The notes beneath the pieces were generated by a model. It was not told the DNA's origin. It saw only the letters and a list, made by a program, of their open reading frames with translations, and searched no databases. Both the position numbers and the translations under genes were made by a program. This document shows positions 15,947 to 32,568 of a stretch of DNA of 32,935 nucleotides, piece after piece. The stretch lies in the NCBI GenBank assembly GCA_019636285.1, contig JAHBXV010000053.1, positions 1-32,935 of the forward strand, written 5' to 3'. How positions within the stretch are numbered: position 1 is the first letter of the stretch; every line of letters starts with the position of its first letter. This DNA is from Planctomycetaceae bacterium (GTDB lineage: Bacteria; Planctomycetota; Planctomycetia; Planctomycetales; Planctomycetaceae).

Positions 15947-16721
15947 GATCTCAATCCGTCATGACGCCTGGGAGAAATCGCTTTTCAAGAGATACGCCAT
16001 CGGGGAGGTCTGAAGGCAGTGGTCGCCATTCGGTCGAACTTCCGGCGGGTCAATCGGCGGGAGAGACTGGCTGCTGACGACCGGCTTTTTCGGGCTGTCC
16101 GAAGCTGCCCGTCTCTGAAGGCAGTGCTATTCCGGACGCTGGGGCTTAACGCCGTCCGGATCTTGAACCTCAACAGTTTTCTGACAAAAATGCGACATGC
16201 GTTTCGCTTATGTCTAAGTCGATTTTCGGAGGTTGTCAACAATTTGAGAACGGCAAACCCCTTCTTCTTAAGGACTTGTCAGGAAGTGTTGCGTGCGGGA
16301 GAGACTTCGTCACGATACCTGTCGAGATTGTTAGCCGCGACGAGGAATTGCACCCGGCGTATCGAGCGATTCGCGTCGGTGAGCGGTAAGATCTGAATGC
16401 CTGCCTACCGTTCGATCACACCCGCGGCCATATCTGAAACGGACAATGGACTCGACGTCATGAACCCCTGCTGAAAGTCGCCGCGAGAATTCCGATTGAC
16501 GGCCATTCGAGAGCGGTGAATCCTTCGCCGCTCCGGGGAGTTTCTGAGCAAGTCGAGTCTTCGGACGAGGTTGAGGCTGTCGTCAATGCGGCAAAACGAC
16601 GCGAACTTCAAACGCTTGCATGATACGATCTGGAAGGCGCGCGATTTGCGTCGATGCTGGAAGAGGGGCGGGAGTCTTGTTGATCCATCTCCCGGTCAAC
16701 TCGCGAAAGGTTTTTGTGCCA
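15947..16721. other. Divergent intergenic region
   Basis: This 775-bp region separates the minus-strand RND operon from the plus-strand gene at 16722. Several open frames cross it, but none has a credible start or a recognisable product. An AT-richer patch at about 16190-16290 looks like promoter DNA; a candidate minus-strand promoter is listed separately. Leaders for both directions probably lie here. Confidence 0.5.
16211..16239 (-). promoter_or_regulatory. Candidate sigma-70-type promoter for the first RND operon
   Basis: Read on the minus strand there is a perfect TTGACA (16239-16234), a 17-nt spacer, then TAGACA (16216-16211), within an AT-richer patch. The -35 box is ideal and the -10 box matches only 3 of 6 bases. 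It would give a leader of about 260 nt for the adaptor gene. Confidence 0.35.
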
Positions 16722-18311
16722 ATGTCAACGGACCTGGCGAGCTGGTGGCAGGGAACGCTGGAGCGATTGGCCGACCTCTCGAATGGGTCCGCGGCCTCCG
16801 TTCTGCTACGGATCTTTCTGGTGGGCTGTTCTCTGTTCGTCATGGTGCAATGGTTCGCACTGTGGGGAACCCGATGGGGGGACCACGGCTCGCTGGCCAA
16901 ATCGTTCAGCCTGTCGCTGCTCATTCATCTGTGCCTCGGCTTGGGGTGGGTCAGCGTCGTGCAGTTCCGCTCGATGCCGGGAGACTCGGTAGCGGCCGGA
17001 GAGCCGATCGTCATTCGGCAGGTCTTCATCGACGAGGCAGACTTGCCCACTGAGTCCTCGTTGAATCCCGCTGGCGGGTTGCAAGTGGACCTGGACCTGT
17101 TCAGACCAGAGCGGTCGCGTTCACAACCCGCTGACGCGGTGTACGAAGTGGCGTCCATCCCGCGAACCGAGCCTGTTTCTCCGTCGAACCGGCAACTCGA
17201 TGTCAACCCGTTGCCGGTGCCATCAAGGGCCGAAACGACGGAACCGGTGAGGCGAGCCGCGGCTGTCGAGGCGCTGCCTGTTCCGGTTCCGGATGCGACA
17301 TCCCTGCCCGAAGAACGAGCAGGGGCAGAGGCGCGGGACGAGTCTCGCCCGACGAGTTTTTCGCGACGAACAATCGCCTCGGTCTCGGAGTCGCCATCGA
17401 CCGAGCTAACGGAACCAACTCGCCTGCCGAACGAACCGCGGCGGAGATTGGCCGATGTTTCCGCGATTGACCCTCGCGCGAGGGAGTTGCCTGCCCCGCG
17501 ACTTCCCACCGATGACCTGTCGATCCCCGATTTGCGGACCGGGATGCCGCGAGGTTCGTCGTCATTTCCAAAACAGGCCATGGCTCCGCCGGCGGCGGCA
17601 TCCGGGGCGCGAGATCCCCTCGCGAAAAATTCAGGAAGCGACGGAACATTGCGCGGCAGGGTTCGCGATGCAAAATCCGGGCAACCGCTTGCCGGAACCG
17701 TGATTCGCGTCGACCTCGCCGATGGCCGACCGGTTCTCACACGGACCAACGACGACGGAACCTACGAATTGTCGCTCCCGAAAGTTCCGGACAATGTGGC
17801 CGTGAGTGCCGCGCGAGCCGGGTATTTACCCGAGTCGAAGAACCTGCGGGTTTTTCGCGGTGATGGGAACATCCATCGGCTCGATTTTGAACTGGGAGTG
17901 AATACCGAGCGCGTTATTGCAATCGAGAGCACTCCCGTCGTTCATCATCTGGGGAATGACAAGTTCGAAGGCTCCGTCAACAGCCAGTTTCAGCGTCCGT
18001 CCGAAGGGATCCTGTTTCGTGCCGACTTTGACGTCGCCGGCGATCAGTATCCCGATCGGGCCAGCGTTGCCGTTGTTACGTTTCTGGCCAAGGGGATTCA
18101 GTGCGAGCCACAGGTTCGCCTCAACGGTCACCTGCTCACGGAGGGGCTGGCTCCTTCCCCGACCGATGGTTCGTTCGGCCCCGTGACCGTGGCGTTTGAA
18201 CCCGCCTGGCTGCGGGTTGGCCGGAACGTCATCACCATCACGGCTGTCGTCTGTGCGAATGACCTCGACGACTTCGAGTTTGTGAATTTGCAGGTGCGCC
18301 TGTCACCGTGA
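16722..18311 (+). CDS. Membrane-anchored protein with carboxypeptidase-regulatory-like domain
   Basis: From the ATG at 16722 (GAAAGG upstream) the product has 529 residues. Two hydrophobic helices (about 26-48 and 58-78) are joined by a short polar loop; the second, SFSLSLLIHLCLGL, resembles the start of TonB-like or other envelope-anchored proteins. A long Pro/Arg/Glu/Ser-rich, probably disordered linker follows (about 90-305). Next comes a carboxypeptidase-regulatory-like beta-sandwich (about 308-385: GTLRGRVRDAKSGQPLAGT, then TNDDGTYELSLP). A C-terminal beta-rich region (about 410-528) may be a carbohydrate-binding-like fold. It would sit in the inner membrane with its domains in the periplasm. 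It lies between two RND systems, but nothing in the sequence ties it to efflux. A start at 16620 would add an unconvincing N-terminus. Confidence 0.85.
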   Translation: MSTDLASWWQGTLERLADLSNGSAASVLLRIFLVGCSLFVMVQWFALWGTRWGDHGSLAKSFSLSLLIHLCLGLGWVSVVQFRSMPGDSVAAGEPIVIRQVFIDEADLPTESSLNPAGGLQVDLDLFRPERSRSQPADAVYEVASIPRTEPVSPSNRQLDVNPLPVPSRAETTEPVRRAAAVEALPVPVPDATSLPEERAGAEARDESRPTSFSRRTIASVSESPSTELTEPTRLPNEPRRRLADVSAIDPRARELPAPRLPTDDLSIPDLRTGMPRGSSSFPKQAMAPPAAASGARDPLAKNSGSDGTLRGRVRDAKSGQPLAGTVIRVDLADGRPVLTRTNDDGTYELSLPKVPDNVAVSAARAGYLPESKNLRVFRGDGNIHRLDFELGVNTERVIAIESTPVVHHLGNDKFEGSVNSQFQRPSEGILFRADFDVAGDQYPDRASVAVVTFLAKGIQCEPQVRLNGHLLTEGLAPSPTDGSFGPVTVAFEPAWLRVGRNVITITAVVCANDLDDFEFVNLQVRLSP

Positions 18312-18741
18312 TCGGGACTAACGGCTGGTTGCACTTTGTTCAGGTTTGCCCACTCCGATGCGAGCGAGTAGAATTCTGTTGACCGATTGGTCAGCACGAT
18401 GGACCGATCGGTCAACGGGATCCAGCCGGCCATGAACTCCCCGCGTTTCCGAAAGGCCGGCGCCCACGCTCCGCGTGAACCTGCCCTGACCCTGCCTTGA
18501 TCGCAGCCGCATCGTTTTGACGCGGTCCGCGGCGCCCTGCCGATGTTATCGCATAAAGCTCATCCAAATGGCCGACTTCCATAAAACGCGAACCGTCCCA
18601 TTCGTGGAAATCTCCGGTAGCCAACGATTTGTACTCGGGCGTGATGCCCAAACTGGCGCGTTGAACGACCGGAGCGCGAACCCGCAATGGGACTTCTGGT
18701 TCCAGAATTTATCGGGGCAAATCTCGCGCGTCGTAACGGGA
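18312..18741. other. Intergenic region upstream of second RND operon
   Basis: This 430-bp region holds the tandem TetR-type palindromes listed separately. The adaptor frame is open back to 18517, but the upstream part lacks signal-peptide features, so it is treated as leader DNA. No other gene was recognised, and no regulator gene is present. Confidence 0.5.
18379..18415. promoter_or_regulatory. Tandem TetR-type operator palindromes
   Basis: Two near-identical dyads, GACCGATTGGTC (18381-18392) and GACCGATCGGTC (18402-18413), are both flanked by TTGA/TCAA-like bases and spaced 21 bp centre to centre, about two helical turns. TetR-family repressors commonly bind such GACCG-type inverted repeats. 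The site lies about 330 bp before the adaptor ATG and after the stop at 18311, so it probably controls the second RND operon. No TetR gene is in the window. Confidence 0.65.
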
Positions 18742-20211
18742 ATGCAAATGATTTCGAATGTTCTCATGCCGACAGCCGGCTGCAAGGTGGTTGCGGCGTT
18801 GGGGCTCTTCTGTGGCACGCTGCTGCTGGTCAGTGGCTGTGGGCATTCCAAAGCGGTCGCGTCGACCAAGTCGAGTGTAAAGAGCCTTCCCAAGGTGGAG
18901 GTCGCCCGCCCAGTCACGATGCCGATCGTCGAATGGGACGAATTCATCGGGCGCCTGGCCGCCATCGAGACCGTGGAAGTTCGCGCTCGCGTGAGCGGTT
19001 ACCTGGCGACATCGAATTTCCAGGAAGGCCAGTTGGTGCAGGCCGGCGATGTGCTGGTCGTGATCGATCAGCGGCCCTTCCAGGCGGAAATCAGTCGAAG
19101 CCGGGCGGCCCTGCTCACCGCGCAAGCTCAACTGGGCGAGGCACAGGCGGAAGTCGCCCGTACGCAGGCCGACAAAGTGGGCCGCGTGGTGCGCGTCGAT
19201 TTAGCGCTCAAGCAGCTTCAGCGCATGCGGCAGTTGCGGGAACGGAACACCGCGACCCAGGAAGAACTCGAGGTTCGAGAGGCCGAGCACGAGCAGGCCG
19301 TGGCTGAACGGGAAGTCGGCGATACGCTCATCAAGGCGGCCGAGGCATCCGTCGTTGCCGCCGAAGCCGCCGTTGGAACGGCGAAGGCAAATCTGGAACT
19401 GGCCGAGTTGAATCTTCAATACACGGAAGTTCGCGCGCCCATCACGGGCCGCATCAGTCGATTGTACGTGACGGAAGGAAACCTCGTCAGTGGCGGCACC
19501 GCCGATTCGACGCTCCTCACCACGATCGTCTCGACCGATCCCATCCACTGTTATTTCGACGCGGATGAGCAGACGTTCCTCAAGTACATGAAGCTCGCGA
19601 GGGATGGCAAACGTCCCAGCAGTCGCGATGTGCGAAACCCCGTGTATCTCGCGCTAGCCAACGAGAAGGGCGGTTTTCCGCGCTGGGGCCATATGGACTT
19701 CGTCGAGAACCGCTTCGACGAAACCACCGCGACCATCCGCGGTCGGGCCATTCTTCCGAACCCCAATGGGGAACTCGCTCCCGGCCTGTTTGCCCGGGTC
19801 CGTCTTCCCGGAAGCCCCCGGTACGAGGCCGTCCTGATTCCCGATCGGGCAATCAGCACCGACCAGGCTGAGAAGTACGTCATGATCGTTGAAGAGGGAG
19901 CCGCCCAGCGACGGCGGGTGGAACTGGGGCCGATCTCGCATGGGTTGCGAGTCATTCGCGAAGGGCTGACGGGAACCGAGCAGCTCATCATCAGCGGATT
20001 GCAGCGCGTGAAACCAGGGACCGAAGTCGCCATCGAGGAAAAGTCCATTTCGCTCGGGACGGAATCTCTGCCGGACGAGTATGAACCGGTTCCCGAAGAC
20101 AAGTGGTTGACGCCCAAACGCGGCGCCGCCGCGAACGTCACGCTGCCGGACTCGCGGCCTGGTGTGTTGAAGTCGACATCCCTGCCTGAGAAGGGTGGTC
20201 TCTTGCCGTGA
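18742..20211 (+). CDS. RND periplasmic adaptor (membrane fusion protein), lipoprotein
   Basis: The ATG at 18742 gives 489 residues with a lipoprotein signal ending LLLVSGC (Cys33); an ATG at 18748 with GGGA upstream is also possible. The domain order is that of AcrA/MexA. The barrel-sandwich halves are VEVRARVSGYLATSNFQEGQ and YTEVRAPITGRISRLYVTEG. Between them lies a long Ala/Glu/Gln/Arg-rich coiled-coil hairpin (about 115-215), and a beta-barrel and membrane-proximal domain follow. The hairpin is longer than in the adaptor of the first exporter. The C-terminal ~45 residues are Pro/Lys-rich and probably disordered. The stop overlaps the pump start (GTGA), so the two are translationally coupled. 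Expression is probably controlled by the TetR-type sites upstream. Confidence 0.93.
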   Translation: MQMISNVLMPTAGCKVVAALGLFCGTLLLVSGCGHSKAVASTKSSVKSLPKVEVARPVTMPIVEWDEFIGRLAAIETVEVRARVSGYLATSNFQEGQLVQAGDVLVVIDQRPFQAEISRSRAALLTAQAQLGEAQAEVARTQADKVGRVVRVDLALKQLQRMRQLRERNTATQEELEVREAEHEQAVAEREVGDTLIKAAEASVVAAEAAVGTAKANLELAELNLQYTEVRAPITGRISRLYVTEGNLVSGGTADSTLLTTIVSTDPIHCYFDADEQTFLKYMKLARDGKRPSSRDVRNPVYLALANEKGGFPRWGHMDFVENRFDETTATIRGRAILPNPNGELAPGLFARVRLPGSPRYEAVLIPDRAISTDQAEKYVMIVEEGAAQRRRVELGPISHGLRVIREGLTGTEQLIISGLQRVKPGTEVAIEEKSISLGTESLPDEYEPVPEDKWLTPKRGAAANVTLPDSRPGVLKSTSLPEKGGLLP

Positions 20212-23200
20212 AGATTGCCCATTTCTTTATCGATCGGCCGATTTTCGCGTCCGTCGTCTCGATTGTGATTGTCATTCTGGGCGCGATCGCGGCCTATTCG
20301 CTGCCGGTCTCGCAATATCCGGACGTGGTTCCGCCGACCGTCGTAGTTCGCGCGAATTATCCCGGCGCCTCTCCCGAAGTGATCGCCGACTCGGTCGCCA
20401 CGCCGCTCGAGCAGGAGATAAACGGCGTCGAAGATATGCTCTACATGTCTTCGCAATGCACGACCGACGGTGCGATGGCCCTGACGATCACGTTTCGCCT
20501 GGGAACCGACCTCAATCAGGCGCAGGTTCTCGTGCAGAACCGCGTCGCGACCGCGCTTCCCCGCCTGCCGGAGGAAGTCCGCCGCCAGGGCGTGACAACG
20601 ATCAAGGCGTCGCCCGACCTGCTCCTGGTGGTGCACCTCACCTCACCGTCCGGTAAGTATGACCAGGTCTATGTCGGCAACTATGGATTTATCCGGTTGC
20701 GCGATGCCCTGGCGCGGATTGAAGGTGTTGGGGATATCAACATTGTCGGACTGCGCGAATACAGCATGCGCATCTGGCTCGATCCTGAACGGCTGTCACA
20801 CCTGTCGATGACCCCCGGCGACGTCGTTCGGAGTTTGCAGGAGCAGAACGTCCAGGTCGCCTCTGGCGTGATCGGGCAACCGCCCGTTCCCAACGGCAGC
20901 GATTTTCAACTGACGGTCAATACTCTTGGTCGGCTTTCGGACCCGGAGCAGTTCGGCAATGTCGTGGTCCGCAGTGGGGAAAACGGGCGGGTCGTTCGCG
21001 TGAAGGACGTCGCGCGGATTGAACTCGGCGCGCGCGACTACGCGACAATCGGCGCGCTCGACAACCAACCCGCCGTCTCCATCGTCGTGGCGCAGCGGCC
21101 GGGGTCGAACTCGCTGGCCACCGCCGAGGCCGTCGAAGCGGCCATGGAGCGACTCTCGAAAGATTTTCCCGAAGGTGTCGAATACCGGATCATCTACAAT
21201 CCAACCGTTTTCGTCCGGGAATCAATCGATTCCGTGGTTCACACGCTCTACGAAGCCATCATCCTGGTGGTGATCGTGGTGCTGGTCTTTTTGCAGAACT
21301 GGCGAGCCAGCCTGATCCCGCTTCTGGCCATTCCCGTGTCGCTGATTGGCACGTTCGTCGCGATGGCGGCTTTTGGCTTTTCGCTGAACATGCTGTCTCT
21401 ATTCGGCCTCGTGCTGGCGATAGGCATCGTGGTGGACGACGCAATCGTCGTGGTCGAAAACGTCGAGCGGCATATCGCACACGGGCTTTCGCCGCGCGAG
21501 GCGTCGTATAAAGCCATGGATGAAGTGACGGCGGCGGTCATCGCGATTGCCGTTGGTTTGTCCGCGGTCTTTATTCCGACCGCCTTTCTGTCCGGCTTGA
21601 CCGGTCGGTTCTACCAGCAATTCGCGCTCACGATCGCGGTCTCTACGCTGTTGTCGGCCTTCAATTCGCTCACGCTGGCCCCCGCGATGTGTGCCATCCT
21701 GCTCCAGCCCCATGGCGCGAAGAAAGACTGGTTCGCGAAGATCTGGGATTTTCTGTTCGGCTGGTTTTTCCGCCTGTTCAATATCGGCTTTTATTATAGC
21801 AGTTGTGTCTACGCGCGAGCAGTCGGATGGACCGTCCGCCGAGCCGCGCTTCCGCTGCTGCTCTATGTCGGTTTGGTTGTACTCACTGGTTGGGGCTTCC
21901 AGAAGGTTCCCACGGGCTTCATTCCTTCACAGGACATGGGGTACCTCATCACGATGATTCAGTTGCCGGACGGCGCTTCGGTCGAACGAACGAACGCGGT
22001 CGTTCGCGAGGCCGTCGATCGGATTCTGAAGCATCCCGGAGTGAGCCACGCGATTTCGTACGCCGGGTATTCGGGAACGACCCGCAGTGCCAGCCCCAAC
22101 TACGGCTCCGTGTTCGTTATCCCCAAGCCGTTTGAAGAGCGGATGCACCACGGCCCGACGGCCACGAAGATTCAACAGGATTTGCAGGCTCAACTGCGAG
22201 ACATCACCGAAGCACAAATCTTCGTGATCGCGCCGCCGCCAGTTCGCGGAATCGGGACGGCCGGTGGCTATAAATTCCTTGTGCAGGATACCGGCGGGCA
22301 TGGTTACCAGGAGCTTCAAAAGGCCACTGACGAACTGATTGCCGCGGCCAATACCGATCCCGCGCTCTCGAATGTCTTTACCACCTACCGCGCGACGACG
22401 CCTCAGTTGTATGCCAACGTCGATCGCGTGAAAGCCAGCATGTTGCGCGTGCCGATCGCCAACGTATTTGAAACGTTGCAGGTCAACCTGGGCTCGTCCT
22501 ACGTCAACGACCTGAACCTCTTCGGCCGCACGTTCCAGGTCCGCGCCCAGTCGGAAGGCGAATTTCGAATTGCCGAGGAGGATATTACGCGGCTGAAAGT
22601 CCGCAACGCCGATGGAAACATGGTGCCGCTGGGCTCGGTTGTCGACGTGGAGTGGAAGAGCGGCCCCGATCGCGTGGTGCGTTACAACATGTTTCCCTCC
22701 GCGGAAGTTCAGGGGGATACCGCGCCCGGTCGCAGTTCGGGCGAGGCGATCTCGGCGATCGAGCGTCTGGCGGAAGAAGTTCTGCCACCCGGCATGACCG
22801 TTGCGTGGACCGATATCGCCTATCAGCAGCAGCTCGCGGGAAATACGGCGATTTATATCTTTCCGCTCTGCGTGCTGTTCGTGTTTCTGGTTCACTCGGC
22901 GGAATACGAAAGTTGGACGCTGCCGCTCGCCATCATTCTTATCGCGCCGATGTGTCTGCCCTTCGCGTTGGGGGGCGTGGTCGCGCGGGGAATGGACAAC
23001 AACCTGATTACGCAGATCGGTTTTATCGTGCTCATTGGCCTCGCGGCCAAGAACGCGGTGCTCATCGTCGAATTCTCGAAACAACTCGAGGAAGAACAGG
23101 GACTCGACCGCTTTCAGGCCACCGTCGAGGCCTGCCGGCTTCGGTTGCGACCCATTATGATGACATCATTCGCGTTCATCCTCGGCGTGCTCCCGATGGC

Positions 23201-23429
23201 CACGGCCCATGGGCCGGGCTCGGAAATGAGGCAAGTTCTGGGAACAGCGGTTTTCGCCGGCATGCTCGGCGTCACGATTCTTGGCCTCTTTCTGACGCCG
23301 ACGTTCTACGTTCTGCTGCGAGGCATCTCGCTCTGGTTCTGGAAAAACCACGAAGAGTCCGCGAGCGAAGAGACAGCGAACAAAGAGACCCGGCGAAGTC
23401 AGCGTCAGGAATCGATTACACCTGCGTAA
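20208..23429 (+). CDS. RND multidrug efflux pump, HAE1/AcrB type
   Basis: This 1073-residue proton-driven inner-membrane pump starts at a GTG that overlaps the adaptor stop. The N-terminus (FFIDRPIFASVVSIVIVILG, then LPVSQYPDVVPPTVVV) is typical of AcrB/MexB. The paired Asp of the proton relay occurs in IVVDDAIVVVENV (near residue 411), and the Lys in LAAKNAVLIVEFSKQ. Twelve membrane segments and two large periplasmic loops fit the family. Unlike the first pump there is no extra helical block. The C-terminal tail is charged. No outer-membrane factor follows; the next gene is convergent, 28 bp away. It probably works with a factor encoded elsewhere, possibly the one at 9002-10627. The substrate is unknown. 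Confidence 0.95.
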   Translation: MKIAHFFIDRPIFASVVSIVIVILGAIAAYSLPVSQYPDVVPPTVVVRANYPGASPEVIADSVATPLEQEINGVEDMLYMSSQCTTDGAMALTITFRLGTDLNQAQVLVQNRVATALPRLPEEVRRQGVTTIKASPDLLLVVHLTSPSGKYDQVYVGNYGFIRLRDALARIEGVGDINIVGLREYSMRIWLDPERLSHLSMTPGDVVRSLQEQNVQVASGVIGQPPVPNGSDFQLTVNTLGRLSDPEQFGNVVVRSGENGRVVRVKDVARIELGARDYATIGALDNQPAVSIVVAQRPGSNSLATAEAVEAAMERLSKDFPEGVEYRIIYNPTVFVRESIDSVVHTLYEAIILVVIVVLVFLQNWRASLIPLLAIPVSLIGTFVAMAAFGFSLNMLSLFGLVLAIGIVVDDAIVVVENVERHIAHGLSPREASYKAMDEVTAAVIAIAVGLSAVFIPTAFLSGLTGRFYQQFALTIAVSTLLSAFNSLTLAPAMCAILLQPHGAKKDWFAKIWDFLFGWFFRLFNIGFYYSSCVYARAVGWTVRRAALPLLLYVGLVVLTGWGFQKVPTGFIPSQDMGYLITMIQLPDGASVERTNAVVREAVDRILKHPGVSHAISYAGYSGTTRSASPNYGSVFVIPKPFEERMHHGPTATKIQQDLQAQLRDITEAQIFVIAPPPVRGIGTAGGYKFLVQDTGGHGYQELQKATDELIAAANTDPALSNVFTTYRATTPQLYANVDRVKASMLRVPIANVFETLQVNLGSSYVNDLNLFGRTFQVRAQSEGEFRIAEEDITRLKVRNADGNMVPLGSVVDVEWKSGPDRVVRYNMFPSAEVQGDTAPGRSSGEAISAIERLAEEVLPPGMTVAWTDIAYQQQLAGNTAIYIFPLCVLFVFLVHSAEYESWTLPLAIILIAPMCLPFALGGVVARGMDNNLITQIGFIVLIGLAAKNAVLIVEFSKQLEEEQGLDRFQATVEACRLRLRPIMMTSFAFILGVLPMATAHGPGSEMRQVLGTAVFAGMLGVTILGLFLTPTFYVLLRGISLWFWKNHEESASEETANKETRRSQRQESITPA

Positions 23430-23899: not shown

Positions 23900-25267
23900 T
23901 CAGGCGCTTGCGTGATCGTTCCAGCGGTCGCCACTCTTCATCAACCGCCATCCCGCAAGGAAGCCAGCGACATATGATCCCACGATTGCCCACACGGAAG
24001 CTGCCAGAATACCCAGCAACTGCGTGACCAGCGAGGCAGTGTATCCAGTTTCAAGCAGACCGGCGAACTCCCGTTCGCCGGCGCCGCGACTGCTGATCGC
24101 TGAAACACCAAACACAGCCGTCGCGAGCAGTCCGAGCGACGTAGCCAGGAGTTGAATGAAGGCGAGTCGCCGCACGTCGTCAAACCGCATTGCCTTCACG
24201 TCTCGAATCACCCATGCTGCGATCGTCCCGGCAAAGACACCAACGACGATCGCGGAATTCGGCGTCATGACGGCGGAGCCGGAAGCGATCGCCATGAGAC
24301 CCGCGAAGAGGCCGATTGGAGCGTGCGTGGCTCGAACTGGCCAGTCAAGCCATCGCGCGGTAACAACCGCCATGAGTCCTCCACAACAGGCGGCAATGAG
24401 CGTATTACACCAGACAACGCTCGTAAAAGGCGTTGGCTTCAGGCTCGGTGTGTCCTGGCTTGCCAGGCTGCCCACCAGGAAGAGGCCAGCCCCCAAAACG
24501 ACCACGTGGTGAGATCGATTTTCATCCGCAGTCGACGCTGGCTCGACTGAGTCTTCGGGCTCGCTCGAAGTGGGGCGGCGGAATAATACAAGGATGGTCC
24601 AGGCCGAAGCGAGGTAGAGCATACTCCCTCCTCCATCAAAGCCGCCTTGATGGACAAACCAGCCATTTCCCCAGATCCAGTGGACGAGTGGTGAATAAAC
24701 GAGGACCAGCCAGATGAGTGCAAAAACGGCGACGCGCGCCGGTGGTAGGATGTAAGGAGCGGCGAATATCCAGGTGACGGAAACCGTCAGCATTATTGCG
24801 AGCTGATAGACAAACACCTGCGCATGTGGCAGATGCTCAAAGACCGGACCGACGGAGAACCCGGCGCGGATTTGATCGCCCGATGGGACGAACTGACTGA
24901 AGAATAAATAGTCAAGGTTTCCGATCACACCACCTCGACCCATCGAAGAGGTCAGGTCCGTGCGAGTTTCCTGATTCTTCAGCTCATTGAGCAAATTGGA
25001 CGAAACCGTTGCCGACGGTTCATTTGGTGGTAAAGTTCCCAGAGACGGCCCGAAGGACAGGCTGTAGCCCGCAATACCCCATGCCAATGTCAGTACCAGC
25101 AGAGCCGGAAAGCCCGCCGATACGACGCCATGGGAGTGCGGGCGCCTCAAAAGTGCGCCGTAGAACAATGCGATTCCGGGAAGTGCACAGGCAAGAAGGA
25201 TAAACGTGCAGAGACTGGCCCACCCGATGGCCGCTGAATCGAAGGAGTTGACCCACTGAACCGGCAT
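23900..25267 (-). CDS. Ammonium-transporter-like membrane protein lacking pore histidines
   Basis: The 455-residue protein has about eleven hydrophobic segments and clear Amt/MEP landmarks. These are PGIALFYGALLRR (30-42), WGIAGYSLSFG (63-73), SPLVHWIWGNGWFVHQGGFDGGG (from 192), WCNTLIAACCGGL (286-298) and a final FDDVRRLAFIQLLATSLGLLATAVFG (362-387). Aligned without gaps to the E. coli AmtB stretches around His168 and His318, the two positions are Tyr218 and Gln372. No His lies at either position, so the twin-His pore that conducts ammonium is missing. A polar insertion of about 55 residues (75-130) also sets it apart. It may sense or bind a ligand, or carry something else. It starts 13 bp after the stop of the anchored CRTAC1 gene, so it is probably co-transcribed with it. 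The start lacks a strong ribosome-binding site. Confidence 0.8.
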   Translation of the reverse strand: MPVQWVNSFDSAAIGWASLCTFILLACALPGIALFYGALLRRPHSHGVVSAGFPALLVLTLAWGIAGYSLSFGPSLGTLPPNEPSATVSSNLLNELKNQETRTDLTSSMGRGGVIGNLDYLFFSQFVPSGDQIRAGFSVGPVFEHLPHAQVFVYQLAIMLTVSVTWIFAAPYILPPARVAVFALIWLVLVYSPLVHWIWGNGWFVHQGGFDGGGSMLYLASAWTILVLFRRPTSSEPEDSVEPASTADENRSHHVVVLGAGLFLVGSLASQDTPSLKPTPFTSVVWCNTLIAACCGGLMAVVTARWLDWPVRATHAPIGLFAGLMAIASGSAVMTPNSAIVVGVFAGTIAAWVIRDVKAMRFDDVRRLAFIQLLATSLGLLATAVFGVSAISSRGAGEREFAGLLETGYTASLVTQLLGILAASVWAIVGSYVAGFLAGWRLMKSGDRWNDHASA

Positions 25268-25280
25268 CGGAGACTTTCTA

Positions 25281-27230
25281 CTATTGGTGATTGTTCGAAT
25301 TGATTTGCGGCGACATCTTAGAGTCTTTTACCATCCTCCCCTCGCCACGCCTCAATTCGAGAAATCGATCTGTCTCTCCACCAGAAAAGACTTCAGTGGC
25401 CGTTTCAACCGGACCGTCCGGCCAGCGAACACGAATTTCCTCATAGCTGCCGCTGTCGCCCATGCCGAAGTGCAGTCGCGGGTCGTTGCTGGCAAGATAG
25501 CTACTTGCCGGGTTGGCGACCTGCCGTCGACTCACTTTCGAGGCGATGACTGTCACTTCGGCGCCAAGCGCGTCGCGGGAGCGAGCCGGGTCGAACAAAC
25601 GTACCGAGAGCCAGTGACCGGCGCGGCGAAAGTCATTTCGATAGAGGCGTGCCCGGCCTCCGCAGTTCGTGACAATGAGGTCGACATCGCCGTCATTATC
25701 AAGATCGCCATGCAATAACGCTCGTCCCGACGCAGTTACCGCGAGAAAATCCCCGCCGCGCTGGGGAGCCGCAACAAAACGATCGTCGGGCGTTCCCATC
25801 AAAAGTTGATTGACGTCCGCGTAGTCGAGCCAGAAGGCCGCCGGATTATCGATCGTGTCGTTCCGGACTTGGAATTCGTCCTCCCCATGGAATGGAAATC
25901 CAGAATGGCAAGGAATGACCAGTCCATTGACCATTGGCACGTCGAGGCGTCCGTCAAGATCGAGATCGATCAGGGCGATCCCCCATCCCGTGTGTCGCAT
26001 GGTTGGAGCGTCGACACCCTTCGCGGCGGTCGCGTCCGTGAACTGCCCATCGTCTTCACGAAGATAAAGAGTGGTCGATTCGGTAGTCAGATGCGAAACG
26101 ATGAGGTCCGTTCGATCGTCTCGGTCCACATCGCCGCTGGCGACTCCCATTCCCGCTTCGGCGATTCCCCGGACATTGAAGGCGACGCCTCGCGCGGCGG
26201 CTTCCTCACGAAATGTTCCGTCGCGTTGATTAATCCACAGTCGGTTGGGCTGACCATCATTGGCCACAAACAGATCGGGCCAACCGTCGTCCGAAAAATC
26301 GGCGGCCAATACCCCCATCCCGTAAGTTTTAGAGGCCGCGAGACCGGCTTCCTCGGTGACGTCCTTGAACCGTATGATCGACGTACCGTCTTCCCGGACT
26401 TCGACACCTTCATTGTGATAGAGGCGATCAACCGTGGGTTGAAACTTGTGTGGGCCGCAATAGCTGACGAGGCCATGATGAAATCCGCAGGCAACCGAAT
26501 GATCGTATCGAGGGTCAACGGTGTAGTTCACCACGAACAGATCCAGCCATCCGTCGCGATCATAGTCGCAGAATGCCGCGCTCAGGCCCCAATCCGAATC
26601 GTCGATTCCCGAGTCGGCGGTGATATTGATGAACGTCGCATCACCGCGATTCAGGAAGAGTTGGTCGCAACCGTAGTTCGTGATCAGTACGTCGATATGG
26701 CCGTCGTTGTTGATATCGCCAGCGGCACACCCGCACCCGTAGCCATGGTTTTTCAGCCCAGAGGTCGCGGAGACATCCTGAAAGTGGCCGGCCGACTTTT
26801 GCAGCCAGAGCCCGCAACCGTCCGGCAACGGCTCGCTAAGCGTGCCGGTCGCACGCGGCGATTTGCCAGCGTTGACGAGCAGCAGATCCAGTCGTCCGTC
26901 GCCGTCGAAATCCGCAAGAGCTCCACCCGTGCCGATCGACTCGGGCATGAAATAAGTGCCCAGTGGGCCCACGACATGACGAAAGTCGAGTTTCCACTCG
27001 TCAGTCACGTCCACTAGCTCTCGTTCGGCGTCTGCCGATATAGGAACCGGAACCATGGACGGCGTCTCCGTCGGGCAATCGACAAAACCGCGACGGTCCG
27101 TGGCGGTCGTTGCTCGCACTGCCGGTCGACGCGAAAACTCCAGCACCTGCCAGGCGACGAGTCCACACAATCCCACCACTAGCATGGCCGTTCGCAGCCA
27201 GGGATGTCGTACTAGCGATCCAGGGGCCAT
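25281..27230 (-). CDS. Membrane-anchored CRTAC1-type FG-GAP/ASPIC-UnbV protein
   Basis: The ATG at 27230, with GAAGG 5 nt upstream, gives 649 residues; an in-frame ATG at 27401 would overlap the upstream TPR gene by 80 bp. A single membrane anchor lies at about residues 12-30. Then come seven FG-GAP/VCBS-like calcium-binding repeats (for example DFDGDGRLDLLLVN, DINNDGHIDVLITN, DYDRDGWLDLFVVN, DLDNDGDVDLIVTN), expected to form a seven-bladed beta-propeller. A C-terminal UnbV_ASPIC domain follows (HWLSVRLFD, then YEEIRVRWPDG). The first repeats include Cys pairs that may form disulphides. The protein would face the periplasm or outside. One repeat reads DVDRDDRTDLIVSH, lacking the usual Gly. 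Propellers of this kind commonly bind ligands or proteins; the partner is unknown. It is the fourth gene of a probable operon. Confidence 0.93.
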   Translation of the reverse strand: MAPGSLVRHPWLRTAMLVVGLCGLVAWQVLEFSRRPAVRATTATDRRGFVDCPTETPSMVPVPISADAERELVDVTDEWKLDFRHVVGPLGTYFMPESIGTGGALADFDGDGRLDLLLVNAGKSPRATGTLSEPLPDGCGLWLQKSAGHFQDVSATSGLKNHGYGCGCAAGDINNDGHIDVLITNYGCDQLFLNRGDATFINITADSGIDDSDWGLSAAFCDYDRDGWLDLFVVNYTVDPRYDHSVACGFHHGLVSYCGPHKFQPTVDRLYHNEGVEVREDGTSIIRFKDVTEEAGLAASKTYGMGVLAADFSDDGWPDLFVANDGQPNRLWINQRDGTFREEAAARGVAFNVRGIAEAGMGVASGDVDRDDRTDLIVSHLTTESTTLYLREDDGQFTDATAAKGVDAPTMRHTGWGIALIDLDLDGRLDVPMVNGLVIPCHSGFPFHGEDEFQVRNDTIDNPAAFWLDYADVNQLLMGTPDDRFVAAPQRGGDFLAVTASGRALLHGDLDNDGDVDLIVTNCGGRARLYRNDFRRAGHWLSVRLFDPARSRDALGAEVTVIASKVSRRQVANPASSYLASNDPRLHFGMGDSGSYEEIRVRWPDGPVETATEVFSGGETDRFLELRRGEGRMVKDSKMSPQINSNNHQ

Positions 27231-27321
27231 GCGACCTTCATTCCAGACGGGAGTTGGAAACTTGCCAACCGAGACTCGCCGGGTGGCCGATTCCAATTCA
27301 ACGAATCGAGGTAACTGTTGC

Positions 27322-28683
27322 TTAGTTTTGTTCCACGGCTGGCGGAGTTTGTATACGTCCGGAGGCGGCATTTTTCTTGGAAGATTCCCTGGCTTGCTCA
27401 AGATACCTCAGCGGCACCGGGTCGCCCGGCACGAGGGCTGCGGCTTCTTCCAGGTGCTGCCGCGCCTCCAGCGCGTTTCCTTGCTTGAGGAGGGCAACCC
27501 CCAATGCCAGCCGGACCTGTGGGAAACGGGGATCCAAAGCAATCGCCGATCGGTACGATCGCAGGGCGTTTTCAAGGTCTCCCGACGCTTCCTGCTGCAT
27601 TCCCAGGAGAAACCACGCCTGCTCGTCATCGGATTTAATTTCGAGAATCCGTCGGTAGGTCTCCATGGCGAGTGGGACGCGACTGGTTTGCTCATAGACG
27701 CCTGCCAGACCGAACAGGGCGGGGACGTTCGGACCAAAGCGATCCAGGACGTCCGTGTATACAGACTCGGCGGATTCAAGCTCCCCGAGAAATCGATAGG
27801 CGTTCGCGAGATTGACGTGAGCAGTCGGGATATCGGGACGCTGCTGGACGAACTCCCGGTACTTGGCGACCGCCGTTTGCAAGTCGCCGCGAGCCAGAGC
27901 CAGGTCCGCTTGTTCGGCCAGACTTTTTCCCAATCCTTCATGGCGACGCAAATCCTGCTGTAGGATCGGGTCGGGAAGTTCGATGCGGGCCGTCTCGGGG
28001 TATCGGGAAACTTCCTGCTGCCAGTGCCGAAGTTCCTCGAGTTCGCCACGGCGCTGGGCAATCTTCGCGAGCTCGCGATAGGCCGGTCCAGCCATCCACT
28101 CCTTTTGCTCGATGGCCTCGCGAAAATACACCTTGGCGGCATTCACCTGGTTTCTGGCAAGTTCCATCTGTCCCAGCAGCATGAGCAGATACGGATTCTT
28201 GGGCTCGAGTTGCTTGGCTCGCAACAGGGTCGCTTCACAATCCGAGAAAGAGCCGAGTCGCAATTGAATCGATGCGATTCGCAACAGCAGCGGAAGGTAG
28301 CGTGGCCTTAGTGCCAAAGCGCTCTCATAGGCAGACAAAGCCGCGTCGTAGTCGGTCTGCTCGAATGAGTAACCGAGGAAATACGGCCAACGAAAGTTCG
28401 CCGGATCCAGCTCCTTGGCCCGGACAAAACTTTCGCGAGCCGGCTCGGTGTAGTCATGAGCGAGAAAGACCAGGCCAAGCCGTCCCCAGGCATCGCTAGA
28501 ATCGGGCCGGATGAGGACTTCCGTTCGTGCCGACTCGATCGCTTTCACAACGAGAGGATGTGCCCATGCGAGGTCGACCTCGGGAGGCTTCGTATTCTCG
28601 CTTGCCGAGTGACCACATCCACCGGCCGCGAGTGCGAAGAGTGGGAATAGAAATGCGGCTACGAGCCAGCGACGTTCCGGCAT
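27322..28683 (-). CDS. TPR-repeat lipoprotein
   Basis: The product has 453 residues. The signal peptide ends at the lipobox AAGGC (Cys23). The rest is a nearly continuous TPR solenoid of about ten helix pairs, such as AWGRLGLVFLAHDYTEPARE, LLMLLGQMELARNQVNAAKV, AHVNLANAYRFLGELESAES and AWFLLGMQQEASGDLENALR. The last ~25 residues are polar and Pro-rich. TPR lipoproteins usually scaffold envelope protein complexes. A strong GGGAGG lies inside the end of the upstream CRTAC1 gene, and only one base separates the two genes, so translation is coupled. The gene sits between two CRTAC1 genes. A TPR-CRTAC1 complex is inferred. Confidence 0.93.
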   Translation of the reverse strand: MPERRWLVAAFLFPLFALAAGGCGHSASENTKPPEVDLAWAHPLVVKAIESARTEVLIRPDSSDAWGRLGLVFLAHDYTEPARESFVRAKELDPANFRWPYFLGYSFEQTDYDAALSAYESALALRPRYLPLLLRIASIQLRLGSFSDCEATLLRAKQLEPKNPYLLMLLGQMELARNQVNAAKVYFREAIEQKEWMAGPAYRELAKIAQRRGELEELRHWQQEVSRYPETARIELPDPILQQDLRRHEGLGKSLAEQADLALARGDLQTAVAKYREFVQQRPDIPTAHVNLANAYRFLGELESAESVYTDVLDRFGPNVPALFGLAGVYEQTSRVPLAMETYRRILEIKSDDEQAWFLLGMQQEASGDLENALRSYRSAIALDPRFPQVRLALGVALLKQGNALEARQHLEEAAALVPGDPVPLRYLEQARESSKKNAASGRIQTPPAVEQN

Positions 28684-28684
28684 C

Positions 28685-30460
28685 TCATCCTCCCGATGTC
28701 TTGAAAGGAGGAGTCAACGAGACTATCCGCCCGCCACGGAAGAGAAGAATGCGTTGATTGGCCGTCGGGCCCGAAAACTCCTCCAACGTGCCATCGGGCC
28801 ATCGCACTTCGATCGCGTCACAGCTCGCCGTCTTCCCCAGCCCGAAGGAAAGCCAGATATCGTTTTGTGTCAGATACCCTTCCTGAGGATGCACCGATCC
28901 TTCAAGCAGGCGATCGCCGATACGCACTCGCACATTCGCCCCTATTGCCTCGCGCTGTGAGGTTGCGTCGATCAGCCGCACGCTGAGCCAGTTTCCGCTT
29001 GTTTCGGTCTGGCTGGTAAACAATCGCGCGGGGCCGCTGTTGTTCACCACCAGTAGGTCGACATCACCGTCACCCTCCAGATCCCCACCCGCGATCGAAC
29101 GGCCTATGTCTTGGTGACGAGCGAACTCTCCCGCGAGGTCAGTGCTCACGGTGAAGCGAAGTTCGGAGCCTTGGCGGAAAAAGAGTTGATTGCGCTGCCG
29201 GTAGGCATCGGTTGGACTCTCGCCGGAGATCGACGAGGTGAATCGACGAACACCGCCATTCACGATGAGCAGTTCTTCCGTTCCATCATGGTCGAGGTCG
29301 ACGGACGCGATTCCGAAGCCGGTGTTGGGCAGGCTTGGCGGCCCAAGTCCGGATGTTGGCGTGGCGTCGTTCCAGAAGCCCGCCCCCTCGGAGAGATAGA
29401 GCGTATTCGTTTCACCGGTAAGATGGGTCAGCAGAATGTCCCAGACGCCGTCGCCATTCCAGTCGCGCGACAGAACGCCCATGCTTGCTTCGGATTCGCC
29501 TAGAAAGTTTCTCGCGACGCCCCGCGCCGTGGCTTCGTCGCGAAAAGTCCCATCCTCCTGCTGAATCCAGAGGCGGTTTTCTTCCATGTCGTTGGCGACG
29601 TACACGTCAATCCGTCCGTCGCCACTGAAGTCTCTCGCAGCGACGCCAAGTCCTTTGCCGCGAATAGCTCCCACGCCGAGATCCTGAGCGCGATCGATCA
29701 TCGGGCTGGATGACGCGTCAGCAAATTCTCCGGAATTCATCAGAACCTGGTCGACCGTTCCGCGGTAGGTCGAAGGGCCGCAGAAGTCCCGGCGGCCGTC
29801 GGCGCCGTCACAGTATTGCCCGGGAACAAAGTCGACGTAGCGGACTACGAAAAGATCCAGCCAGCCGTCACCATTCAGGTCCGACCAGCAGGCTGCCGTA
29901 CTCCACGAGGGAAGGTCGTCTCCCGGTCTGGCGGCGAGTTCACGAAAAGTCCCGTCTCCCAGATTCTGAAAAAGCTGATCACGTCCATAGTTTGTCAGGA
30001 ACACGTCGGGAAAACCGTCGGCGTCGAAGTCGGCCCAGTACGCCCCCATCCCGAATCCAGTCGCAGCGATCCCGGCATGATGCTCAATCAACTCGAATGT
30101 TCCGTCGGCCCTTTGACGGAAGAATCCGTCCGCTCGACTTGACGCGAACTTGTTGACGTTCGCTCCATTGACAAGGTAAATGTCGAGTCGACCATCCTGA
30201 TCGAAGTCCACCAGAGCGCCGCCCGATCCCATGATCGAGGGCATTTCGTAGTGCGTGAAATCTCCTGCATCGTGCTCGAATTCCAGGCGCCGCTCGTGCG
30301 TCACTTCGCTAAGCCAGCCTGCGGATTGCGGAGTGGCTTCCGTTTCTGGCTGATGGTGTTCTTGCGAAGGATTGATGGGAGACTTCGCGCAGCTCGCAAT
30401 TGTCAGAATGAACAACGGCAATCCGAGACACGCCCAGATTGCCGTCGATCGGATGTCCAC
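28685..30460 (-). CDS. CRTAC1-type FG-GAP/ASPIC-UnbV lipoprotein
   Basis: The 591-residue protein starts at a GTG at 30460 with a G-rich ribosome-binding stretch. A lipoprotein signal ends TIASC (Cys24). Seven FG-GAP/VCBS-like blades follow (DFDQDGRLDIYLVN, DFDADGFPDVFLTNYG, DLNGDGWLDLFVVRYV, DFSGDGRIDVYVAND, DWNGDGVWDILLTHL, DLDHDGTEELLIVNGG and DLEGDGDVDLLVVNNSG), with Asp-rich calcium loops. The C-terminal UnbV_ASPIC domain (NWLSVRLIDATSQREAIGAN, then DAIEVRWPDGTLEEFSG) completes the CRTAC1 layout. It is a paralogue of the anchored protein at 25281-27230 but has a lipid anchor, so the two probably occupy different membrane surfaces. Only one base separates its stop from the TPR start. Confidence 0.93.
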   Translation of the reverse strand: MDIRSTAIWACLGLPLFILTIASCAKSPINPSQEHHQPETEATPQSAGWLSEVTHERRLEFEHDAGDFTHYEMPSIMGSGGALVDFDQDGRLDIYLVNGANVNKFASSRADGFFRQRADGTFELIEHHAGIAATGFGMGAYWADFDADGFPDVFLTNYGRDQLFQNLGDGTFRELAARPGDDLPSWSTAACWSDLNGDGWLDLFVVRYVDFVPGQYCDGADGRRDFCGPSTYRGTVDQVLMNSGEFADASSSPMIDRAQDLGVGAIRGKGLGVAARDFSGDGRIDVYVANDMEENRLWIQQEDGTFRDEATARGVARNFLGESEASMGVLSRDWNGDGVWDILLTHLTGETNTLYLSEGAGFWNDATPTSGLGPPSLPNTGFGIASVDLDHDGTEELLIVNGGVRRFTSSISGESPTDAYRQRNQLFFRQGSELRFTVSTDLAGEFARHQDIGRSIAGGDLEGDGDVDLLVVNNSGPARLFTSQTETSGNWLSVRLIDATSQREAIGANVRVRIGDRLLEGSVHPQEGYLTQNDIWLSFGLGKTASCDAIEVRWPDGTLEEFSGPTANQRILLFRGGRIVSLTPPFKTSGG

Positions 30461-30601: not shown

Positions 30602-31099
30602 TTATTTTGTTTGCGTTGCTCCAAGAGGGGCATTCTTCGGTTGGGGCTTACCTGCCGAGCCGGTTGACGAGAATTTCATCGCGAGTGTTTCCGTCCCGCC
30701 GTCCGGGACAGTCACTTTGATGGTGTCGGTCTTGCTGCCACCGCCAGAAATGGCCGCCATCATTTCCGCCGGATCGGTTGAGCCGGCCTTGGGGGCTTCA
30801 CCAGAACCGAGGACGGCGGAATATTCGCCGACCGGAGCCCCATCTCCCGTGTTGTAGGTCGTCAACACGTAGCTGCCGTCCGCCTTGATCGTGCCACCGA
30901 TAATCGGCCGTAGATCCTGTTCCCCGCCGTTCTGAGGAGTCAGCGTCAATTGTCCCGGCCCAAAGGGCTTGTCATCGACGAAAACCGTCCCTTTGACGGT
31001 CACGACGGGTAATTGTTTCGAACCCCCACCGCCGCATCCGATCGAGAACCATGCTGTCGAAACAACAACCCATCCAAGCACCATAGAGCTGCGAATCAT
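30602..31099 (-). CDS. Small lipoprotein, carboxypeptidase-regulatory-like
   Basis: The 165-residue product starts at 31099 after a strong GAAGGG. A signal peptide ends SIGC (Cys22), followed by a Gly-rich spacer. A beta-rich region then follows, with VTVKGTVFVDDKPFGPGQLTLTP and ADGSYVLTTYNTGDGAPVGEY, the pattern of the small planctomycete lipoproteins with a carboxypeptidase-regulatory-like or transthyretin-like fold. The C-terminus is Gly/Lys-rich and polar. Such lipoproteins often lie next to DUF1559 genes, as here (DUF1559 gene upstream at 31522). It is probably the first gene of the CRTAC1 operon; a 141-bp gap separates it from the CRTAC1 lipoprotein. Function is unknown. Confidence 0.85.
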   Translation of the reverse strand: MIRSSMVLGWVVVSTAWFSIGCGGGGSKQLPVVTVKGTVFVDDKPFGPGQLTLTPQNGGEQDLRPIIGGTIKADGSYVLTTYNTGDGAPVGEYSAVLGSGEAPKAGSTDPAEMMAAISGGGSKTDTIKVTVPDGGTETLAMKFSSTGSAGKPQPKNAPLGATQTK

Positions 31100-31521: not shown

Positions 31522-32568
31522 CTAGAACTCACTCGGAATGATCATGCCCGGCTGCAGCGAGCAACTGTTGAGTGACTGCCAAAGGCTGTTGGTGTCCCAC
31601 GCACCCGAGTGCTGAATGCTGTCGTTGATGAAACGAACGGCACCATCAGCCATCAGATAGTGAGCACCACCAGCATGCACACTGCTCGGACCCGGCCAGT
31701 TGTTGTTCATGCCAAAACACGACAGGTAGGTCGGCTGGCAGACATAAGGGCCCCCTCGCCACCAGAAGCCAGTCCTAGCGCCGTCTGGGTTCGTCCAGCC
31801 GTAGGCGTCCATGATCCCTTGTTCTGATTGCGGTGCAATCAGTGCCGCGCGGAAAACAGCATTACCGGCACCGCCGCCACGAATGCGGCCTCCGCCGCTA
31901 CGAAGGTGGCCGGGAACGCCTGCTGGAGGTTCAAAGCCCTGTGTCGAGACTTCACCGACCATGATCGTCGACGACGTACCCTTGGTGATGTCGCGAATGC
32001 GGGTGTTGCCCCCGTTCTGAAATACTCCCGACACAGGATGGGAAGCGCGATACCACCAGTCCCACCCCATCGACCCGGCATAGTTCGTTTGTGAAATTCC
32101 GTGAGACAGAGCGGTATTTCCACTGAAACCGGGATCGGACGGACACATGAGCGCCGTCAACTGCTGCGACACAATCGGCTGTCCGTTCGACCCGAGTTGG
32201 AACTGAGTCGTCGTCGAGTTCCACATCGGTGCGGAGAAATTGATCTGGTTGTAGAGCGGAGCTTGATCAATATACGGCAGAATCATGGAAATCCAGGAGT
32301 GATTTCGCGGAAGGCCAGAGGTGCCCGCGGCTCCGGGGAAATATGTGAAGACTTGCGTGAGGGGGAAGGTCTGGTGGGTATCGTGATAATTGTGGAGGGC
32401 AAGGCCCAACTGCTTCATGTTGTTGCGGCATTGTGTTCGGCGGGCGGCTTCCCGCGCCTGTTGGACGGCAGGTAGCAGCAGCGCGATCAGGATCGCGATG
32501 ATCGCGATGACCACCAGCAATTCAATCAGGGTGAAGGCTATGCGCCTACGAAGCAATTGAATACTCAT
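31522..32568 (-). CDS. DUF1559 type IV pilin-like protein
   Basis: The 348-residue protein starts at 32568 with AAAGG upstream. An 11-residue basic leader precedes the [20 protein letters not shown] segment. Then come [21 protein letters not shown] and, near the C-terminus, HAGGAHYLMADGAVRFI (H-x9-DG). The tail ends GMIIPSEF, shared with the partial copy at the right edge, so the two are recent paralogues. The residue before the cleavage-site Phe is Ala rather than Gly. The product is probably a pseudopilin-like surface or periplasmic protein. It is followed by a stem-loop and a 422-bp gap, so it is probably its own transcription unit. Confidence 0.93.
   Translation of the reverse strand: MSIQLLRRRIAFTLIELLVVIAIIAILIALLLPAVQQAREAARRTQCRNNMKQLGLALHNYHDTHQTFPLTQVFTYFPGAAGTSGLPRNHSWISMILPYIDQAPLYNQINFSAPMWNSTTTQFQLGSNGQPIVSQQLTALMCPSDPGFSGNTALSHGISQTNYAGSMGWDWWYRASHPVSGVFQNGGNTRIRDITKGTSSTIMVGEVSTQGFEPPAGVPGHLRSGGGRIRGGGAGNAVFRAALIAPQSEQGIMDAYGWTNPDGARTGFWWRGGPYVCQPTYLSCFGMNNNWPGPSSVHAGGAHYLMADGAVRFINDSIQHSGAWDTNSLWQSLNSCSLQPGMIIPSEF

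Follow-up and report, generated by a model that had tools for sequence, protein, structure and literature searches.

The twin-His pair of the Amt pore is described as characteristic of the entire Amt/Mep/Rh superfamily (PMC10433425, PMC10794816). What, then, is the role of a protein that keeps the fold and lacks the pair? This question is raised by a gene in the window, i.e. the whole stretch of 32,935 nucleotides from a Planctomycetaceae bacterium that was analysed here. The gene and the parts of it that matter for the argument are the following:

23900 to 25267, (-) strand: Amt-fold protein without the twin-His pair, 455 residues, ATG start, open frame
24152 to 24154, (-) strand: Gln372, codon CAA, at the site of AmtB His318
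24614 to 24616, (-) strand: Tyr218, codon TAC, at the site of AmtB His168
24827 to 25051, (-) strand: residues 73-147, the lengthened TM2-TM3 loop on the outer side, which carries the family motif D-x5-G-R-G-G-x2-G

Fold and pore residues of the window protein

The sole Pfam match of the protein is PF00909, which covers residues 16-439 (E 8.6e-30, 104.2 bits at a gathering score of 23.2). The score obtained with TIGR00836, 113.1 bits, lies far below the NCBIfam cut-off of 343.3. An AlphaFold2 single-chain model built from 18 relatives (pLDDT 76, pTM 0.79) was superposed on E. coli AmtB (1u77), as the initial annotation had proposed, and the predicted structure is the 11-helix Amt fold (Z 45.9, rmsd 2.3, 352 residues aligned). 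The PF00909 match and the AmtB-like model therefore point to an Amt-fold protein that is not a standard Amt: by profile and predicted fold it is a member of the Amt/Mep/Rh superfamily, and the defining features tested place it outside the ammonium-transporter subfamily (TIGR00836).

The initial annotation had put Tyr218 and Gln372 at the positions of AmtB His168 and His318, with no histidine nearby. Three alignments agree on this pairing, namely phmmer against PDB chains, MAFFT with the canonical Amts of the bacterium's own genome and a comparison of the 18 relatives with canonical Amts by HMM-HMM alignment (probability 100, E 2.1e-49). Histidines occur only at residues 44, 46, 145, 148, 196, 206, 253, 254, 315 and 452; none is within ten residues of either site, the closest being His206, twelve residues from Tyr218. 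The agreement of the three alignments, together with this spacing, rules out an ordinary Amt with a misaligned pore. In the alignment, each of the 18 members is one residue short between D160 and H168.

Further pore residues have changed as well. The Phe gate is absent, AmtB F107 and F215 being replaced by Ile158 and Ser270, and in the MAFFT alignment S219 and W212 correspond to Pro274 and Ser267. W148 and D160 are kept as Trp199 and Asp211. Consequently, the outer ammonium site F107/W148/S219 reads Ile158/Trp199/Pro274, with one of three residues retained. Thus, the window protein has the predicted fold, the near full-length profile and the D160 and W148 positions in common with AmtB-type channels (PF00909; TIGR00836), but differs from them in the loss of the twin-His pair, the Phe gate, W212 and S219 and in a TM2-TM3 loop that is longer by about 44 residues.

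As judged from these residues, the pore most likely no longer conducts ammonium, because the Phe gate and the outer ammonium site are changed in addition to the twin-His pair. The loss of the pair by itself is not proof of a dead pore, since AmtB and Mep2 with an altered pair can let K+ or NH4+ through (PMC9040831). AmtB H168A/H318A showed no conduction in vivo and no growth on ammonium in yeast, where single Ala variants grow (PMC3647058), and the Mep2 double variants may fail partly through trafficking (PMC9040831). The window protein might accordingly still conduct ammonium or K+ by a channel-like route that dispenses with the two histidines, given that AmtB and Mep2 variants pass K+ and that AmtB H168D/H318E passes hydrated NH4+ (PMC9040831). 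However, these variants keep the rest of the pathway, whereas F107, F215, W212 and S219 are replaced here, and double-Ala variants fail to support growth on ammonium (PMC3647058, PMC9040831). We therefore regard residual conduction as improbable.

A receptor role, or transceptor, would mean that ammonium binds in the outer vestibule and that the signal passes to CRTAC_B, the CRTAC1-like propeller encoded upstream, and not through the pore. Sensing by an Amt with a blocked pore is reported for Ks-Amt5 (PMC5764959), and W148 is kept in the window protein, which shares with the sensor Amts the fold, a probably closed pore and perhaps a role other than uptake. Yet Ks-Amt5 has a fused kinase and retains selectivity filter, Phe gate and His pair (PMC5764959), none of which is found intact in the window protein; the other residues of its outer (S1) site are Ile158 and Pro274, and with 18 residues after the last helix there is no cytoplasmic output domain. 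Lacking a fused output domain, the protein was not assigned to the sensor Amts. Moreover, its own genome encodes four further Amts, each with both histidines. One of them (L004) heads a protein of 1289 residues (L191:745-4614, (+) strand, on contig G000:C18) that by eye resembles a hybrid sensor kinase with PAS, kinase, receiver and Hpt regions. Uptake and sensing can thus be served elsewhere in this genome, and the presence of a kinase-like fused Amt with an intact pair likewise makes it rather doubtful that the window protein is the ammonium receptor. A further Amt-family match at E 1e-20 is present in 15 of the 18 genomes that encode the window protein or one of its relatives, G122, G123 and G127 having none at this threshold.

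A clade of relatives with variable histidine sites

The window protein is one of a clade of 18 and not a singleton. A single-query search of the 170 genomes of its own family, one per species, gave matches in 17 other genomes (E 2.0e-50 to 9.7e-26), the next match following at E 4.8e-21. When the profile of the 18 was run over the same 170 genomes, its members, which match it by construction, all had E values no higher than 2e-138, compared with 5e-64 for the match that came next. In an even phylum sample of 392 genomes, the A1 profile found two at E 1e-58, the own genome and G014. The A3 profile, made from three intermediate proteins, found none of the 392 at E 1e-70, an empty result that is informative only with a known positive in the sample. 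Identity between the window protein and the 17 relatives, one of which (L006) stems from the MAG Planctomycetaceae bacterium HKST-UBA58, is 22-29%, and all 18 members match PF00909 at E <= 0.001.

In a maximum-likelihood tree of 38 hand-chosen rows, the 18 members form one side of a branch (support 100/99), another group (100/100) comprises 17 canonical rows, of which two are identical, and the three intermediates are placed between the two (99/96). The window protein and L006 are long branches that meet, and their sister relation is unsure.

The state of the two histidine sites differs within the clade. Site 168 is Leu in ten members, His in two (L102 and L103), Gln in two, and Tyr, Phe, Met and Pro in one each; site 318 is Leu in eight, Gln in five, Met in three, and Phe and Ile in one each. 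Hence, no member has His at site 318, and none has both histidines. At 2.10 and 1.93 bits, both columns have an entropy close to that of the average column (1.98 bits), compared with 0 at D160, which is kept in 18/18 members, and 0.99 bits at W148, kept in 14/18. The intermediates G117b and G130b are His/His and G058 is His/Gln, with W212, F215 and S219 already changed in these proteins. Since L102 and L103 belong to different subclades, a hand count on the tree gives five losses of the first His if it was never regained, or three changes with regain. The partly intact pores of Amts that are likewise linked to CRTAC1-like genes suggest a stepwise dismantling, the order of which we infer.

These columns also bear on whether the eroded pore was re-specialised, i.e. 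whether it passes another small solute or a gas while the propeller gates or feeds it. The retained fold, the invariant D160 and largely kept W148, the conserved outer vestibule and the mostly hydrophobic residues at the former histidine sites are compatible with such a channel. However, the clade has no common new pore signature, the two sites being occupied by Y/L/F/Q/H/M/P and Q/L/M/F/I at average-column entropies. A conserved new pore would be expected of a carrier for another small molecule, yet both sites vary, which weakens this reading; we consider it unlikely, albeit worth keeping in mind.

Pairing with a CRTAC1-like propeller gene

The Amt-like gene lies at the downstream end of a group of genes on the same strand, in which the initial annotation had noted beta-propeller and TPR genes; Pfam and reading of the neighbours confirm this:

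25281 to 27401, (-) strand: CRTAC_B, CRTAC1-like beta-propeller with FG-GAP and UnbV_ASPIC (Pfam); by eye, the true start is likely near 27221
27322 to 28683, (-) strand: TPR protein (TPR families), by eye and from its N-terminus a probable lipoprotein
28685 to 30460, (-) strand: CRTAC_A, second FG-GAP/UnbV protein (Pfam), by eye and from its N-terminus a probable lipoprotein
30602 to 31099, (-) strand: small probable lipoprotein; no Pfam match
31522 to 32568, (-) strand: DUF1559 pilin-like protein with an H-X9-DG C-terminus (PF07596, E 1.8e-55; TIGR04294)

CRTAC_B contains the FG-GAP propeller and UnbV_ASPIC (profile match E 1.3e-29), and its AlphaFold2 model superposes on murine CRTAC1 (9etn; Z 39.6, rmsd 2.4, 461 aligned). 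While sharing this predicted fold, it differs from CRTAC1 by an N-terminal helix at residues 67-99, a probable membrane anchor, and by the pairing of its gene with that of an Amt-fold protein.

A CRTAC_B gene is located directly upstream of the Amt-like gene on the same strand in 18/18 members, in L107 and L111 as a fragment at the contig end. The two open reading frames overlap by four bases in 12 members and by 23-112 bases in four, where some of the mechanically assigned starts are probably too early; they are separated by 58 bases in L006 and by 13 bases in the window. Conversely, each of the 19 CRTAC_B matches that score more than 900 bits in the 170 genomes adjoins a gene of the Amt-like clade or an intermediate form. 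The three intermediates also adjoin CRTAC_B-like genes, the one in G058 being a fragment at a contig end. The order second CRTAC, TPR, CRTAC_B, Amt was found in 10/18 members including the window, the second CRTAC gene of L106 and L109 being as similar to CRTAC_B as to CRTAC_A; in the other members the cassette is separated from the pair, is encoded on the opposite strand or falls outside the sequenced stretch examined. As the pairing is found in 18/18 and the full cassette order in only 10/18, the Amt-like gene and CRTAC_B are the core of the locus. Thus, among the homologues the operon link suggested by the initial annotation is conserved, whereas the Tyr/Gln state is not. Homologues of the small probable lipoprotein occur in the L006 operon and near the Amt-CRTAC_B pair in L099, L102 and L114.

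CRTAC_B is better conserved than the Amt-like protein, with 46-57% identity to the window copy versus 22-29%. Distances within the two proteins are correlated (r 0.89, 0/5000 permutations, 16/18 members), although shared descent alone predicts as much; the pairing is genetic linkage and not proof of contact. In the even phylum sample, CRTAC_B matched 6/392 genomes at E 1e-150, two of which are the known pairs of G000 and G014. Weaker CRTAC_B homologues (740-758 bits) are present in G023 and G167-G169, on contigs with no Amt match. Directly upstream of the homologues in L166, L168 and L169 (G023, G169 and G167, respectively) lies a gene for a protein of about 400 residues with membrane segments apparent by eye; it was rejected as a candidate distant Amt, because hhalign gave a probability of 0.1 and hmmsearch no match that reached the inclusion threshold.

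Two loci, L112:7850-14917 and L108:9300-16464, contain two adjoining, divergently transcribed CRTAC_B-Amt pairs, one with His/His and one with neither, and are a natural before-and-after comparison. In the window, genes for a carboxypeptidase-regulatory-domain protein, an RND adaptor and an RND permease (16620-23429, (+) strand) converge on the operon.

In titles and abstract openings of the open-licence literature, none of the matches listed describes an Amt paired with a CRTAC1-like or FG-GAP propeller. A paper of 2011 described what integrin-type propellers do in bacteria as unknown (PMC3192720), and a genetic partner is now on offer for a CRTAC1-like one.

The outer face and the proposed function

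The initial annotation had described a polar insertion of about 55 residues. The TM2-TM3 loop is indeed lengthened, but by about 44 residues: it comprises 75 residues in the window protein and 74-77 in 18/18 members, whereas the loops of 61 other Amts span 0-41 residues with a median of 31, the shortest including those of partial reading frames. Of the protein's columns, 31 are conserved at 90%. According to the model topology, 28 of them fall in the outer half, where 18.3 are expected (P 8.5e-5), and 13 in the loop alone, where 5.1 are expected (P 4e-4), columns being treated as independent in these tests. Without the loop, 15/18 conserved columns are still outer (P 0.004), a bias that does not clearly exceed that of 59 canonical Amts (15:3 vs 33:24, Fisher P 0.089). 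Like the loop, the outer vestibule is conserved across the clade while the pore columns vary. Residues 97-140 have a pLDDT under 50 in the single-chain model, though the stretch contains invariant residues, as expected of a loop that depends on a partner.

Purifying selection is seen in close pairs of relatives, with dN/dS values of 0.08-0.18 for six pairs of the Amt-like proteins and 0.09-0.18 for CRTAC_B. Members recur among the pairs, four of the six have a dS above 1, and a seventh, saturated pair was dropped. The pair of intermediates gave 0.29. The high divergence of the window protein from its 17 relatives might be taken as a sign of a decaying gene with no function, but the open frame, the invariant loop motif, the pairing in 18/18 members and the low dN/dS of the relatives make this most improbable. 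These dN/dS values speak against a pseudogene at the level of the clade, the window copy being without a close pair.

Taken together, the clade with its lost pore residues, the 18/18 linkage, purifying selection and the separate canonical Amts argue for the re-purposed Amt fold envisaged in the initial annotation. Both roles it suggested have lost ground, the carrier through the varied pore sites and the sensor through the missing output domain. Since selection appears to act on the outer side of the protein and on its linkage to CRTAC_B, a membrane partner or anchor fits better than a sensor or another carrier. We give about an even chance to the view that the protein is a divergent Amt/Mep/Rh member which probably no longer conducts ammonium and has become a many-helix membrane partner of the upstream CRTAC1-like propeller. 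The protein would still be a trimer, its lengthened outer loop and vestibule would dock the propeller, and the two may join the lipoproteins of the operon in an assembly at the cell surface. That such an assembly acts in capture or attachment at the cell surface is a guess prompted by the pilin-like and TPR neighbours.

A more specific evolutionary scenario, which we put forward tentatively, is that in one family of Planctomycetota a CRTAC1-like propeller gene captured an Amt, that the pore of this Amt was dismantled stepwise and that the pore-dead trimer became a transmembrane docking platform for an integrin-like propeller, in the manner of Rh proteins. The first losses would have been those of the outer ammonium site and of half the Phe gate, as in the still His/His G117b and G130b; the second His would then have changed to Gln, as in the His/Gln proteins of G058, G013 and G136; finally, the first His would have been lost, more than once, and the new outer loop would have become the conserved part. 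The human RhD and RhCE proteins, which are generally described as lacking the twin-His pair and are not known to transport ammonium, serve in a membrane complex and are thus the best functional parallel, although they belong to the eukaryotic Rh branch and have no known propeller partner. Both form trimers with RhAG (PMC10985258).

If this scenario is true, the blood-group Rh proteins would have a bacterial counterpart in a pore-dead Amt docking platform. The natural series in these bacteria, with His/His at one end, His/Gln as a middle state and neither histidine at the other end, is linked to a single partner gene and makes it possible to ask what in the fold is needed for conduction and what for assembly. 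It is also a warning for annotation, as PF00909 alone would label the proteins of the clade ammonium transporters.

The loss of the twin-His pair among Amt relatives is uncommon, not unique. The control alignment comprised 62 Amt relatives drawn from the genome collection, of which 59 are His/His, a 63rd locus (L067) with no usable reading frame having been left out; the exceptions are L006, a clade member, and two further Amts. The Amt of a Sphingomonadales MAG (L043:6515-8407, (+) strand) has Phe/Gly at the two sites, with F215 and S219 changed and F107, W148, D160 and W212 kept. In Clostridium cibarium (L048:7512-8861, (+) strand), Tyr is found at both sites and the other six pore residues checked are intact; by eye, the gene is located between sensor-kinase-like and PII-like genes, and its product is possibly an ammonium sensor with a twin-Tyr pore.
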